Origin: Fervidobacterium changbaicum | GTDB taxonomy: Bacteria; Thermotogota; Thermotogae; Thermotogales; Fervidobacteriaceae | Assembly: GCF_004117075.1 (NCBI RefSeq) | Contig: NZ_CP026721.1 | Span: forward strand, 372,001-436,000 | Direction: 5' to 3' | DNA length: 64,000 nt | Part shown: piece after piece, positions 15,631 to 20,329 of the stretch | How positions within the stretch are numbered: the first letter of the stretch is position 1 | Layout: every line of letters begins with the position of its first letter | The notes under the pieces: generated by a model | What the model saw: the letters and a program-made list of their open reading frames with translations, nothing else | Database searches by the model: none | What the model was told of the DNA's origin: nothing | Translations under genes and position numbers: made by a program

Positions 15631-15781
15631 ACCTCATCCCCCCTATAAGAGATTTGCGTGAACATAGAGACAATACGATTATACAACAAATATTAAATTT
15701 CCTATCCTTCTTGCCTCCCCAATTCGGTTCCAACGAAATCTTGAGCGCAGCGATTGTGAAAAAAGTCATTTGTAAAATTTA

Positions 15782-15837
15782 CCAAACTGTAACATGTAAA
15801 TGATTGCGTTTGTTACCATGGTTTGGTTTAATATAAT
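15782..15837 (+). promoter_or_regulatory. Promoter and candidate operator of the sulfur operon
   Basis: A -10 TATAAT at 15832-15837 has a -35 TTGTTA at 15810-15815 with a 16-bp spacer. Around the -35 lie nested inverted elements: CCAAAC (15782-15787) with GTTTGG (15821-15826), and TGTAACA with TGTTACC. The leader also has a hairpin GTGGG-TGGAG-CCCAC at 15861-15875. The operator role is inferred. Confidence 0.55.
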
Positions 15838-15899
15838 TGGAAAGTGAAAAAAATCTCAAAGTGGGTGGAGCCCACAAAATAAAAGAGGGAGGGACTTTT

Positions 15900-16142
15900 A
15901 TGGCGAAATATGCAGTTACAAAGTCATTAGACGTCAGGGGAGAAGTTTGTCCAGTTCCGGATGTAGAAACAAAGAGAGCACTCAAGGATATGAAACCTGG
16001 TGAAATCCTTGAAGTTTGGGTCGATTATCCAATGTCGAAAGAAAGAATTCCCGAAACCGTCAAGGCAATGGGACATGAAGTTCTTGAAATTGAAGAAGTT
16101 GGTCCAAGTGAATGGAAAATATACATAAAAGTAAATGGCTGA
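15900..16142 (+). CDS. tusA: TusA-family sulfur carrier protein
   Basis: 80-residue sulfur carrier. TusA proteins hold sulfur as a persulfide on the first Cys of the CPxP motif, here C17 in DVRGEVCPVP, and pass it between enzymes. ATG 15900 follows GAGGGAGGG; the longer frame from 15837 overlaps the promoter. It is first in a five-gene operon with a thiosulfate transporter and DsrE-family proteins, so it probably receives sulfur derived from imported thiosulfate. It closely resembles the TusA domain of the regulator at 18282-18878 (CPVPD, VDYP, KER/AERIP and the ending IYIKV). Confidence 0.93.
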   Translation: MAKYAVTKSLDVRGEVCPVPDVETKRALKDMKPGEILEVWVDYPMSKERIPETVKAMGHEVLEIEEVGPSEWKIYIKVNG

Positions 16143-16160
16143 TAACAGGGGTGAATTGAT

Positions 16161-17156
16161 ATGGCTTGGTCAGGGTTAATAATTGGTCTCATTTTCGGTG
16201 TGATTTTGCAAAGAGGACGCGTGTGTTTTAACTCTGCTTACAGAGACCTTGTTTTCTTCAAAGATAACTATTTGATGAAACTTTATACGTTCGCTGTTGG
16301 GCTCGAGGCTATTCTTTTCGTTCTTTTTGCTCAATTCGGTCTTATTACGCTCAATCCGAAACCAATAAATCTCGTTGGTAACACACTTGGTGCCTTTACA
16401 TTTGGTTTAGGTATGGTTCTTGCAGGCGGTTGTGCTTCTGGTGTTACATACAGAACAGGTGAGGGTCTAACAACTGCTTGGTTTGCTGCTTTAATATACG
16501 GTTTGACAGCTACTTCCGTAAAGGGTGGAGCACTAAAGTTCATATCAAACTGGCTTGGACAATTCAACAAAACCGTTGAAAATCACGTTTCAAGCATATA
16601 CAAGCCACAATCTGGTTTGACACTTCCAGACGTCTTCCACATTAATCCTTTGGTAATGGCTATTATTTTTGCTGCAATCCTCTGGGTTTATGCATTTGGA
16701 ACAAAGACAACAAACAGGGAAACGAAGCTTTCTTGGAAGGTTGCAGCAGTGCTCTTGGCGATACTTGCACCGTTTGCCTGGTGGACAAGTCAGAAAGCTG
16801 GAAGAATGTACGGACTTGGTATTACTGGTGGTTGGATCAATTTGATAAAGAGTTTTACAACAGGTGAAGCACTTAGCTGGGAAGGTTTTGAGATAATAGG
16901 TATAATCATTGGTGCTGCAATTTCGGCTGTGCAAGCCAAGGAGTTCAAACTAAGAATGCCAAAACAGCCAAAGACATACGTCCAGGTAATGATCGGTGGA
17001 GTTCTTATGGGACTTGGTGCGGCAATGGCCGATGCTTGTAACATTGGCCACGCTCTCACAGGTGTTGGACTTATGGCAGTCTCCTCGATAATTGCAACAG
17101 TCTTCTTTATGCTTGGAAACTGGACAATGGCTTGGTTCTTGTTTGGAAGAAAATAA
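16161..17156 (+). CDS. tsuA: YeeE/YedE-family thiosulfate transporter
   Basis: Integral membrane protein of 331 residues with two Sulf_transp halves. The known thiosulfate transporter TsuA (YeeE) of Spirochaeta thermophila relays thiosulfate past three essential cysteines, C22, C91 and C293. Here Cys occurs at exactly residue 22 (GRVCFN), 91 (AGGCASG) and 293 (DACNIGH). It follows tusA by 18 bp with SD AGGGGTGA. YeeE genes are commonly beside a TusA-like gene, which fits sulfur hand-over to the carrier. Thiosulfate as substrate follows from the family. Confidence 0.92.
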   Translation: MAWSGLIIGLIFGVILQRGRVCFNSAYRDLVFFKDNYLMKLYTFAVGLEAILFVLFAQFGLITLNPKPINLVGNTLGAFTFGLGMVLAGGCASGVTYRTGEGLTTAWFAALIYGLTATSVKGGALKFISNWLGQFNKTVENHVSSIYKPQSGLTLPDVFHINPLVMAIIFAAILWVYAFGTKTTNRETKLSWKVAAVLLAILAPFAWWTSQKAGRMYGLGITGGWINLIKSFTTGEALSWEGFEIIGIIIGAAISAVQAKEFKLRMPKQPKTYVQVMIGGVLMGLGAAMADACNIGHALTGVGLMAVSSIIATVFFMLGNWTMAWFLFGRK

Positions 17157-17196
17157 GCAAGTCGATCATTTTATGTGAATTTGAGGAGTTGATATA

Positions 17197-17550
17197 ATGA
17201 AGATAGCAATTCAAGTGATGGTTCCCCCTTACACGTACCAGGATTTGGATACAGCTATCCATATCGCAGAAGCTGCACTAAAAAGAGGTCACGAGGTTAC
17301 TATATTCTTGTTCGCAGATTCAGTTCTCTCAATTAATTCTAAGGTTAAGCCGATAAGAACTGACAGGAATATACCTGAGAAAATGAAAGAGCTGGCAGCT
17401 AAAGGTGTACGTATTGAAATCTGTGGTATTTGTATGGATTACCGAGGAGTAACAGAAGATATGATAGTCGAAGGCTCAAGACCAAGTGGCTTACCTGAAC
17501 TGGCAAGTCTTTTTGCTAACTGTGACAGGTTCATAAGCCTTATGGCTTAA
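17197..17550 (+). CDS. DsrE/TusD-like sulfurtransferase subunit
   Basis: 117-residue DsrE-family protein. In the DsrEFH and TusBCD hexamers the DsrE/TusD Cys carries the persulfide; here ICGICMDYRG gives C76 at the position of the catalytic Cys, with a second C79 nearby. It lies third in the sulfur operon with SD TTGAGGAG and is followed by two other small DsrE-fold genes, consistent with a three-subunit complex in the cytoplasm. Confidence 0.85.
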   Translation: MKIAIQVMVPPYTYQDLDTAIHIAEAALKRGHEVTIFLFADSVLSINSKVKPIRTDRNIPEKMKELAAKGVRIEICGICMDYRGVTEDMIVEGSRPSGLPELASLFANCDRFISLMA

Positions 17551-17578
17551 TGATTATGGCATGTTGGGTGGTGAAATA

Positions 17579-17935
17579 ATGGCTAAGAAATTACTATTCG
17601 TTGTATACCAATCCCCAGTAGGTTCAATTTGGGTTAATGAAGCGTTTAGAACAGCTTTCGGAATGTACGGAGAAGACCTTGAACCAGCAGTTCTCTTGAT
17701 GAACGAAGCAACTGTTGCAGTAAGACCGACGTGTAAGCCAGAATGTCTCGGCCTTCTTCCTATCAGCATGGTGAAAAGATACTTAGCAAGGTACGGCACA
17801 CCTGTCTATGTAGTTAAGGAAGATGCCGAAAGAATGAAGGTTACAGAGGTTGATCCAGAATACGGTGCACAGTTTGTAAGCAAGGCAGAGCTCTCGAAGC
17901 TTTTCCATGAGTACGATTACGTTGTTTTTATGTGA
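17579..17935 (+). CDS. DsrF/TusC-like DsrE-family protein
   Basis: 118-residue protein of the DsrE fold. It begins MAKKLLFVVYQSP, contains a helix with NEAFRTAFGMYG, and carries C52 and C56 in RPTCKPEC. By size and gene order it fits the DsrF/TusC subunit, which is structural rather than catalytic in known complexes. ATG 17579 follows GGGTGGTG; the frame opens a few codons earlier at 17561. The Cys pair is unusual for a TusC-type subunit. Confidence 0.75.
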   Translation: MAKKLLFVVYQSPVGSIWVNEAFRTAFGMYGEDLEPAVLLMNEATVAVRPTCKPECLGLLPISMVKRYLARYGTPVYVVKEDAERMKVTEVDPEYGAQFVSKAELSKLFHEYDYVVFM

Positions 17936-17945
17936 GGTGAATGAA

Positions 17946-18221
17946 ATGGCTTTGATACTTGTGAAATACGGTGTCGATAATCCGGCCGAGAGAGTAAAAT
18001 TGGAGATTGCTAATGAGAACGATAAGGTAGTCCTTATTCAAAATGGTGTTTTTTTTGCAGTTGTTGAGGATGTTACAAAGCTGACAAAAGCAGAAGTGTA
18101 CGCACTTAAGAACGATCTTGAAGCAAGAGGATTTTGTACAGCCGATGTCAAAAACGTCAAACTTATAGATTACGATGGATTAGTGGAATTGATTGAGAAA
18201 GAAGAGAAATTCATAGGTTAA
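17946..18221 (+). CDS. DsrH/TusB-like protein
   Basis: 91-residue protein fitting the third subunit of a DsrEFH/TusDCB-type complex. It starts MALILVKYGVDNP, has the DsrH-like stretch DKVVLIQNGVFFAV, and a single Cys in ARGFCTADV. ATG 17946 has GAGGTGA upstream that overlaps the stop of the previous gene, so it is translationally coupled. The operon ends here, at the terminator at 18246. Confidence 0.8.
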   Translation: MALILVKYGVDNPAERVKLEIANENDKVVLIQNGVFFAVVEDVTKLTKAEVYALKNDLEARGFCTADVKNVKLIDYDGLVELIEKEEKFIG

Positions 18222-18245: not shown

Positions 18246-18269
18246 AAAGCGGTGGTCAACCACCGCTTT
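18246..18269. terminator. Bidirectional intrinsic terminator
   Basis: 10-bp perfect stem AAAGCGGTGG / CCACCGCTTT with a TCAA loop between the convergent DsrH-like and regulator genes, followed by a T run. Confidence 0.9.
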
Positions 18270-18281
18270 TAATTAACAGTA

Positions 18282-18878
18282 TTATTCGCTGGTATTTGTC
18301 TTTTTCACCTTGATGTAAATATAGAAGTTTCCTTGATTATCGATAGTTCTTCCGATTAATTCGTGTCCAAGTTGTTCGACTCTATTTGGGATCCTTTCAG
18401 CCGAAAGTGGATAGTCGACTATAACGAGTAGGATTTTGCCATCTTCCAACTCTGATAATACTTGCTGTGTTGTGAGGTCTGGAACAGGACACATTTCACC
18501 TCGCATATCTAATACATAATCAGGCTCACCGGATATTTGGACTATGGGTCTACTTTCAATTTCGCAAGCGGCAAGGTTTTCACAGAATCTGCCTTCAGCG
18601 TTAAGTTTATTGATGAAATTGATAGCGTACTGGAGAATTTTGTAAACTTCCTCCGAGGAGAAATCGAACATTTCTATGCCTTTTACAATTCTGGAATTTA
18701 GAATACCGGCTTCTTTTAAAGACTTAAGGTATCTGTAAGTTGTTGATATGTCAAGTCCTACGATCTTCGACACCTCTGTCGCGGTCTGGTTGTTGTCGTA
18801 GACCGCCATCAATATCTCTAAGCGTTTTTGATTGGCAAGTATTTTGAATAGATTCTCAAGTGTTAGTTTCTTTTTCAT
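18282..18878 (-). CDS. HTH regulator with C-terminal TusA domain
   Basis: 198-residue fusion not matching a standard named family. Residues 5-75 form an ArsR/IclR-like winged helix (LANQKRLEILMAV, then TATEVSKIVGLDISTTYRYL). Residues 80-118 are a linker with C99 and C105. Residues 120-192 are a complete TusA domain, DMRGEMCPVPDL with C130 as the sulfur-binding residue, ending NFYIYIKV. The TusA part is closely similar to the free TusA at 15900. It lies between the sulfur operon and a divergent flavoprotein gene. The inferred role is a transcription factor that senses TusA-type persulfide; the direction of regulation is unknown. Confidence 0.85.
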   Translation of the reverse strand: MKKKLTLENLFKILANQKRLEILMAVYDNNQTATEVSKIVGLDISTTYRYLKSLKEAGILNSRIVKGIEMFDFSSEEVYKILQYAINFINKLNAEGRFCENLAACEIESRPIVQISGEPDYVLDMRGEMCPVPDLTTQQVLSELEDGKILLVIVDYPLSAERIPNRVEQLGHELIGRTIDNQGNFYIYIKVKKTNTSE

Positions 18879-18893
18879 GTTCTTCCTCCAAGC

Positions 18894-18922
18894 TTGAAAG
18901 ATTAATAGGTCGTCATTATAAT
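18894..18922 (+). promoter_or_regulatory. Promoter of the lipoamide-dehydrogenase-like gene
   Basis: -35 TTGAAA (18894-18899), 17 bp, -10 TATAAT (18917-18922). The 83-bp divergent region also contains a second TATAA block (18926-18930) and minus-strand TATAAT copies that could serve the regulator gene, so the two promoters probably overlap. Confidence 0.7.
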
Positions 18923-18961
18923 TATTATAACACGAATAAACTGAATAAAGGAGTGGTGGAG

Positions 18962-20329
18962 ATGGTTTTTGATACAGTTGTTATCGGTGGTGGCCCTGGT
19001 GGATATGTTTGCGCTATAAAGCTTGCACAGTACGGAAAAAAAGTAGCACTTATCGAAAAGGAAAATCTCGGAGGTACCTGTACGAATTGGGGTTGTATAC
19101 CAACAAAGGCACTTCTAACAGCTACACACCTGCTCGATGAATCGAAAGAGAAAGCAAGTAAATTAGGTCTAAAAATAAGTGTTGAAGGGTTTGACCTTGC
19201 TGGGATTATGGCTCACGCAAACAAAAGCATTATGATGTCAAGGAAAGGTATAGAATTCCTTATGAAGAAAAACAACGTCACCGTTGTGAAGGGAACAGCG
19301 GAGGTAGTTAATAGGAAAAAGGTGAGGATTAAGGAAAGTGGCGAAGAGCTCGAATGTGAAAATCTTGTTCTTGCTCACGGTTCTGTTCCAACGATTTTTC
19401 CACCGTTCAGTGAAGTCGAAGGTATATGGACAAGTAACGACGTGTTCTTAATGAAAGAACTACCATCATCGTTGTTGATTGTCGGTGGTGGAGTTATTGG
19501 TGTCGAATTCGCAACGTTCTTCAGCTCACTAGGTGTAAAGGTCAAAATCGTTGAATTGGCTGATCATATACTTCCTTACGAAGACGACGACGTAGCGGAC
19601 GAGGTCAAGAAGTCATTCGCAAGGAAAGGTGTAGAAATAAAAGAGAAAGCGAAAGTGACAGGTGTGAAAATAGTCAGCAACGGTTACGAGGTAACAGTTG
19701 TTGATAGTGAAGGTAAGGAGGTAATTTCGGTAGTTGATAAAGTACTTGTTGCAGTTGGAAGAAGGCCGAATATTCCGGAAGATGTTAAGAATCTCGGCGT
19801 TGAAATAGAAAGAGGGATTAAAACTGATTTAAGGATGAGAACAAATATCGAAGGTGTTTATGCGATAGGAGACGTAAGAGGTCAAATTATGCTTGCGCAT
19901 GTTGCGGCGTACGAAGGTGTTGTTGCAGCAAAGAATATCGCTGGAATTGAAGCAGAGATGGACTACTCTGCTGTTCCATCGATAATCTTTACGAATCCAG
20001 AGGTAGCATCGACGGGTTTGAGAGAAAAGGATGTGGATAGAGAAAAGGTCAAGATATTCAAATTCCCACTCTCTGCAAATGGTAGAGCAAGGACAATGCT
20101 TGAGAATATAGGCTTTGTAAAAGTGATAGCAGATAAGAACGACGATACAGTACTAGGTATGTCAATTGTTTCTCCAGTTGCAACAGAACTCATCATGGAA
20201 GGAGTAATAGCTGTGAGGAATAAGCTCAGAGCACATCAACTTGAAGAATCGATCCATCCACATCCGACACTGAGCGAAACTATCTTAGGTGCACTTGAAG
20301 GGATTACAGACAAACCAATTCACCTGTGA
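18962..20329 (+). CDS. Dihydrolipoamide-dehydrogenase-like flavoprotein
   Basis: FAD/NAD pyridine-nucleotide disulfide oxidoreductase of 455 residues. FAD motif VIGGGPGGYVCA; redox pair C40/C45 in GGTCTNWGCIPTKAL; NAD motif IVGGGVIGVEFA; GD motif YAIGDVRG; C-terminal dimer domain with the catalytic HPHPTLSE. All residues needed for lipoamide-type chemistry are present. ATG 18962 with AAAGGAGTGGTGGAG is used; a start at 18860 would read through the divergent promoter. No E1, E2 or glycine-cleavage genes are nearby. Beside the TusA-HTH gene and sulfur operon, a role in reducing protein-bound persulfides or a lipoyl partner is inferred. Confidence 0.88.
   Translation: MVFDTVVIGGGPGGYVCAIKLAQYGKKVALIEKENLGGTCTNWGCIPTKALLTATHLLDESKEKASKLGLKISVEGFDLAGIMAHANKSIMMSRKGIEFLMKKNNVTVVKGTAEVVNRKKVRIKESGEELECENLVLAHGSVPTIFPPFSEVEGIWTSNDVFLMKELPSSLLIVGGGVIGVEFATFFSSLGVKVKIVELADHILPYEDDDVADEVKKSFARKGVEIKEKAKVTGVKIVSNGYEVTVVDSEGKEVISVVDKVLVAVGRRPNIPEDVKNLGVEIERGIKTDLRMRTNIEGVYAIGDVRGQIMLAHVAAYEGVVAAKNIAGIEAEMDYSAVPSIIFTNPEVASTGLREKDVDREKVKIFKFPLSANGRARTMLENIGFVKVIADKNDDTVLGMSIVSPVATELIMEGVIAVRNKLRAHQLEESIHPHPTLSETILGALEGITDKPIHL

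Follow-up and report, generated by a model that had tools for sequence, protein, structure and literature searches.

A TusA sulfur-carrier domain fused to an ArsR-type winged helix: a predicted thiosulfate-responsive regulator in Thermotogota

A 64,000-nucleotide stretch of the Fervidobacterium changbaicum genome (the window, by which we mean the whole of the DNA analysed) encodes a protein, HTH-TusA, in which an ArsR-type winged helix is fused to a TusA-type sulfur-carrier domain. The reading that we prefer, with a probability of roughly 0.6, is that HTH-TusA is a local, one-target, thiosulfate-responsive regulator of the ArsR family, probably an activator, that controls the neighbouring tusA-tsuA-dsrEFH operon via a single cysteine (C130) and/or by docking to TsuA/DsrE. 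In that case HTH-TusA would probably be the thiosulfate sensor that has been missing in Thermotogota. The parts of the fold were already known, and public genomes have contained such genes for years; the new element is that the fusion is here recognised as a conserved family, which comes with a single predicted operator and a published inducing condition.

The regulator is encoded by a 198-aa ORF with an ATG start and a GGAGG a few bases 5' of it, and the features of interest are as follows.

18282 to 18878, minus strand: HTH-TusA regulator gene, 198 aa (ORF, Pfam/NCBIfam domains, AlphaFold2, Foldseek)
18693 to 18830, minus strand: ArsR-type winged-helix DNA-binding domain, residues 17-62 (HTH_5/ArsR, PF01022, 36.1 bits; cut-off 22)
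18309 to 18515, minus strand: TusA/TsuB-like domain, residues 122-190 (PF01206, 58.6 bits; cut-off 28.6)
18489 to 18491, minus strand: codon of C130, the cysteine of the CPxP motif (Cys in 36 of 36 aligned homologues)

The preliminary description of this DNA, made from the sequence without database searches, had seen a winged helix fused to an intact TusA domain (CPVP, with C130), and rightly so, both Pfam domains being above their curated cut-offs. An AlphaFold2 model computed from a 35-sequence alignment (mean pLDDT 84) has two confident domains and a long, disordered linker, the low-confidence part of which (residues 97-109) holds C99 and C105, the only cysteines of the protein besides the C130 of CPVP. 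By Foldseek, the N-terminal half matches YgaV (3cuo), SmtB, CzrA and SqrR (6o8k), which together with the PF01022 score places it in the ArsR/SmtB superfamily; with the metalloregulator model NF033788 it stays below the cut-off (30.6 vs 55 bits). The C-terminal half best matches TsuB in the TsuA-TsuB complex of S. thermophila (8j4c) and TM0983 (1jdq), which are also its nearest relatives by sequence, and its PF01206 score, CPVP motif with C130 and fold make it a member of the TusA family. It scores 15.6 bits with the TsuB/YeeD model NF041048 against a cut-off of 147.5 (this is an 'exception' model, and the free TusA, at 41.2 bits, falls short of it as well). The near-identity to the free TusA of the adjacent operon (15900-16142) that had been noted is one of motif, with RGE-x-CPVPD and DYPxS-x-ERIP in both, and not of sequence, the two being 49% identical over 70 residues.

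Full-length or near full-length HTH-TusA is encoded in 34 of 103 Thermotogota genomes, so the search across the phylum that had been proposed as a check uncovered a conserved family, and since its full-length homologues occur in six family-level groups with a single conserved domain order, a chance architecture is excluded. In a tree of TusA domains, 33 fused domains group in a single clade (99/96) with branches much longer than those of free TusA, and the recognition helix [DN]xSTxYRxL is kept in this main clade. Two further loci (L068 and L072) have a divergent form, placed before tusA and with a different recognition helix; in the same tree, they may or may not share the origin of the 33-member clade (AU p 0.65). 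Wherever contigs are long enough, the regulator gene adjoins tusA-tsuA-dsrEFH, usually with lpd, the exception being L050 (genome G046), where the regulator lies beside lpd and the thiosulfate operon is on a separate contig. One locus (L062), whose TusA matches the solved T. maritima protein TM0983 at each of 71 residues, has both HTH-TusA and the operator motif described below. The same TusA segment is identical in three other loci and does not by itself identify L062, which we take to be, probably, the T. maritima locus. Two variants on this arrangement were also seen: a Kosmotogaceae-like locus (L067:6755-7435) in which a TusA-only regulator remnant and lpd come directly after tusA, without tsuA-dsrEFH or the HTH half, and two loci of one family group (f10; L043:3452-3709 and L044:5787-6044) with a second short ArsR-type gene immediately 5' of the HTH-TusA gene.

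Among the phyla sampled, Thermotogota alone yielded the fusion. There was none outside this phylum among the best 80 genome-contig loci (in a scan that relied on two TusA peptide patterns, which divergent fusions in other phyla could escape), none, at the thresholds used, in 247, 301, 50 and 23 genomes around loci of Spirochaetota, Chloroflexota, Atribacterota and Hydrothermarchaeota, respectively, no full-length match in the plasmids searched and no fusion in the viral contigs searched. Another unusual TusA fusion, with the TusA domain in the middle of a protein of ~340 aa, was encountered in Metallosphaera (L115:6623-7642 and L147:6563-7585). In the open-access literature we found no characterised fusion of TusA with an ArsR or HTH regulator, in agreement with what the first reading of the sequence had supposed.

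C130 is the sole invariant cysteine of the family. No column of the HTH domain is a conserved cysteine in the 36 aligned homologues (position 30, which is Asn in the window protein, is Cys in 20 of them), and the two conserved sensor cysteines in the ArsR domain that define SqrR, BigR and SoxR are not found in HTH-TusA. A linker pair of the form C-x4/5-C is present in 15 of the 36 homologues and absent in both the nearest relative (L033) and L062, so the di-, tri- or tetrasulfide earlier imagined between C99 and C105, in a linker modelled with low confidence, is not a general feature, and a linker-polysulfide switch would at most be limited to some lineages.

The operon (15900-18221) is convergent to the regulator gene, from which lpd diverges on the other side.

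15900 to 16142, plus strand: tusA, TsuB-like free sulfur carrier (PF01206, 88.5 bits)
16161 to 17156, plus strand: tsuA, thiosulfate transporter (NCBIfam NF052577, 562.6 bits; cut-off 400)
17197 to 17550, plus strand: dsrE/tusD-like gene (PF02635, 94.1 bits)
17579 to 17935, plus strand: dsrF/tusC-like gene, divergent (weak PF02635 and TusC matches; position conserved)
17946 to 18221, plus strand: dsrH/tusB-like gene (PF04077, 65 bits; TIGR03011, 63.9 bits, cut-off 49.2)
18246 to 18269, unstranded: hairpin AAAGCGGTGGTCAACCACCGCTTT between the convergent dsrH and regulator genes (sequence)
18962 to 20329, plus strand: lpd, dihydrolipoyl dehydrogenase, divergent from the regulator (TIGR01350, 535 bits; synteny)

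The hairpin is likely a two-way terminator common to dsrH and the regulator gene; G+C hairpins are also found 5' of the regulator gene in several relatives. In many relatives lpd is a conserved member of the cluster, where its role is perhaps the reduction of carrier persulfide with NADH, and in one locus (L040:6286-7642) it is split over several frames, through pseudogene formation or assembly errors. In T. maritima, yeeE is reported to be induced 42.6-fold with thiosulfate and only slightly with S0, and belongs to a single transcription unit with dsrE/tusA homologues, in a study whose main text makes no mention of a regulator (PMC9431562). This induced operon is the orthologue of that in the window.

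The regions upstream of tusA have in common a 16-bp motif, TTWACCAARTYGTAAY, which is partly palindromic (TTAC-N6-GTAA) and which we propose as the operator.

15778 to 15793, plus strand: proposed operator TTTACCAAACTGTAAC (leave-family-out PWM)
15832 to 15837, plus strand: -10 element TATAAT of the tusA operon promoter, with TTTAAT 5 bp upstream as an alternative (motif spacing)

With matrices each trained without the family under test, the window operator ranks first of 127,970 positions, and the operator is first in 28 of 33 regions, among about 10,000-128,000 positions. In a set of 50 operons, 31 have a main-type regulator, and 29 of these carry the operator 5' of tusA, against 0 of the 19 without; the association has little phylogenetic power, as it amounts to only two to three independent contrasts. 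One locus (L057) has the regulator but no motif, another (L051) has only a degenerate motif, and L068 and L072, with their divergent recognition helix, have none. Of 15 other genomes, 11 have a single exact match to the pattern and four have none; in 10 of the 11 the match is at tusA (G082 has its exact match elsewhere, its own tusA site being a variant); the window's genome has two exact matches, the second inside a coding sequence. A wide regulon was rejected on the strength of these counts, a single exact site in 11 of 11 genomes with any match and two in that of the window. The intergenic region between the regulator gene and lpd (18879-18961), which the preliminary description had put forward as a further target, is not one by sequence: its best motif score is -2, vs 22.5 before tusA, and autoregulation or control of lpd from there was rejected for want of a site. 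Among the regulator genes scanned, only that of L050 has a fair site 5' of itself (13.8).

The position of this site is what points to activation. In nearly all families, 48-50 bp separate the operator from a -10-like hexamer downstream of it (in the window, the motif starts 55 bp from TATAAT and 50 bp from TTTAAT), with weaker phased G-AA elements in ~11-bp steps between operator and -10, and the best -35 match at these -10 elements is no better than in shuffled sequence (2.4 vs 2.6 matches). A conserved -10 without a recognisable -35, preceded at near-fixed spacing by a site, is the layout that led us to propose activation, which is less clear in the window promoter because of a passable -35 (TTGTTA, 16 bp from TATAAT). 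At -35, TTGACA/T boxes occur in some of the operons without the regulator; as a group, operons of this kind do not differ significantly in -35/-10 quality (p = 0.085), the direction being that expected of activation. Could HTH-TusA instead be a repressor at the same site, released by persulfidation like SoxR, SqrR and sHdrR? Those ArsR-type sensors of sulfane sulfur that have been characterised act as repressors (PMC10451225, PMC12423496), and the site is so close to the promoter that a bound protein could hinder RNA polymerase, but its location at about -60 to -45, the near-fixed distance to a -10 with no -35 hexamer, the TTGACA/T boxes of some operons without the regulator and the lack of conservation of the two-cysteine HTH switch make this alternative unlikely, albeit one to be reckoned with.

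Further evidence comes from what the TusA half has kept. In S. thermophila TsuB (StYeeD), alanine mutants of E15, C17, D42, Y43, E48 and R49 were impaired in TsuA binding (PMC11073785). When 33 fused and 28 free domains were compared together with StYeeD, four of these residues (C17, D42, E48 and R49, which correspond to C130, D155, E161 and R162) were found in 33 of 33 fused domains, Y43 (Y156) in 32 of 33, and E15 (E128) as Glu in 26 and Gln in seven. The fused, TsuB-like domains have therefore kept the TsuA-contact residues of TsuB/YeeD and most of the contact face (DYPxSxERI). At V16 and at many more positions that do not vary among free TusA domains the fused ones have changed, a pattern which argues that the fused domain keeps an active, partner-facing side. 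The conservation of C130 and DYPxSxERI could be partly structural, and the retained face would suit sulfur transfer and docking equally well. An explanation by docking without chemistry, in which the regulator is held at the cytoplasmic face of TsuA (or by DsrE/TusA) and freed by thiosulfate flux, C130 being a contact residue, accords with the conservation of precisely this face, with a long and disordered linker, and with the findings that TsuB C17A abolishes TsuA binding and that thiosulfate weakens the TsuB-TsuA complex (PMC11073785). We nevertheless find it rather improbable: the residues in question are also those around the reactive cysteine, which means that conservation cannot separate docking from chemistry, the interaction surfaces of the TusA family are common to other partners, and the regulator of G046, which is with lpd on a contig other than that of the operon, indicates that adjacency to tsuA is not strict.

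The tusA promoter has what may be a second input.

15843 to 15858, plus strand: Rex-like box AGTGAAAAAAATCTCA (resembles the T. maritima Rex operator; not tied to HTH-TusA)

The T. maritima Rex structure was determined with the operator TTTTGTGATAAATTTCTCAAAT (PMC8836258), L034 carries a comparable box, TTGTGAAAAAACTCTCAAAT, and similar ones occur at some operons without HTH-TusA. Resemblance to the Rex operator and presence without the regulator led us to set aside this GTGAA...TCNCA box as a site for HTH-TusA. A second Rex-like box lies at 15754-15769, in the same promoter region. These boxes suggest NADH-linked control of thiosulfate uptake, and an NADH-responsive Rex atop thiosulfate control would, if true, fit an electron-sink pathway. 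Since they imply further promoter inputs, since independent contrasts are few and since most regulator genes have no site 5' of themselves, one might argue that the TTWACC site is read by a different regulator, or is part of the promoter itself, and that HTH-TusA has its targets elsewhere or solely among protein partners. We would give such an argument little credence, because the site is missing from all 19 operons without the regulator as well as from the two loci with a divergent recognition helix, and because it is essentially confined to one promoter, as expected of a gene-linked local regulator. That the fusion is degenerate, its TusA half a leftover fold used for dimerisation and no longer for sensing, would account for the much higher rate of evolution of the fused domain compared with free TusA (as judged by branch lengths), but is highly improbable given that CPxP and the contact face are kept despite this drift, in one conserved clade across the phylum.

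Our preferred reading, regulation of the operon by HTH-TusA in response to thiosulfate, would work as follows. A dimer of the ArsR-type winged helix would bind the predicted TTWACCAARTYGTAAY site, centred near -53 of the operon promoter, and thiosulfate entering through TsuA would be captured on TusA-type cysteines. C130 would then acquire an S-thiosulfonate or a persulfide, either directly or with free TusA/DsrE as the donor, and, alternatively or additionally, the TusA domain of the regulator would be released from TsuA; the altered DNA binding would raise transcription of the operon. There is precedent for the chemistry, as YeeD/TsuB reacts with thiosulfate via its CPxP cysteine and decomposes it (PMC11073785). 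The original idea of a regulator that reads sulfur and governs the adjacent operon thus survives by indirect argument, with C130 as a likely reactive residue in view of its invariance, its TsuB/YeeD kinship and the conserved operator, at which HTH-TusA is predicted to bind. More tentative, at somewhat less than even odds, is the specific proposal that the sensor reads a covalent sulfur load (S-thiosulfonate or persulfide on a single cysteine) from the very relay under its control and switches on a single promoter, in which case a DNA-binding protein would itself be a stop on a sulfur relay. With carrier and regulator combined in a single chain that has only one invariant cysteine and a single predicted operator, HTH-TusA bears on two questions: (i) what regulates the thiosulfate operon and (ii) how sulfur passes from TusA to a regulator, the loading of SoxR/sHdrR by TusA having been described as an unanswered question (PMC11582611).

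How does HTH-TusA compare with known systems? The CstR/YrkD-type persulfide repressors have a different DNA-binding fold (CsoR/CstR), and we know of none with a fused carrier domain. They resemble HTH-TusA in controlling sulfur-handling clusters (rhodanese/TusA) by thiol chemistry (PMC9918477). With the ArsR-family sulfane-sulfur repressors SqrR, BigR, SoxR, sHdrR and YgaV, HTH-TusA shares an ArsR winged-helix fold and a proposed sulfur input, and, with SoxR and sHdrR in particular, genes that adjoin those for a YeeE-family transporter, TusA and DsrE. It differs in that SoxR senses with two cysteines of its own fold (PMC10451225), as SqrR has two within the ArsR domain, whereas the sole invariant cysteine of HTH-TusA is in the added TusA domain, and in that its promoter layout suggests activation. 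A split version of the pairing is seen in a Chloroflexota-group locus (L164:1-12206), where separate adjacent arsR-like and tusA genes lie near dsrE-like, Hdr-like and yeeE genes, but these are unfused and the adjacent TusA has CPGP and no TsuB-type DYPxSxERI. The closest relatives of the C-terminal domain remain TsuB/YeeD and TM0983-type TusA, with which it shares CPxP and DYPxSxERI; unlike these proteins, which are free or fused to TsuA, it is fused to a DNA-binding domain and has diverged strongly outside the active face. HTH-TusA is predicted to be an ArsR-family sulfur sensor in which sensing has shifted into a fused sulfur-carrier domain.
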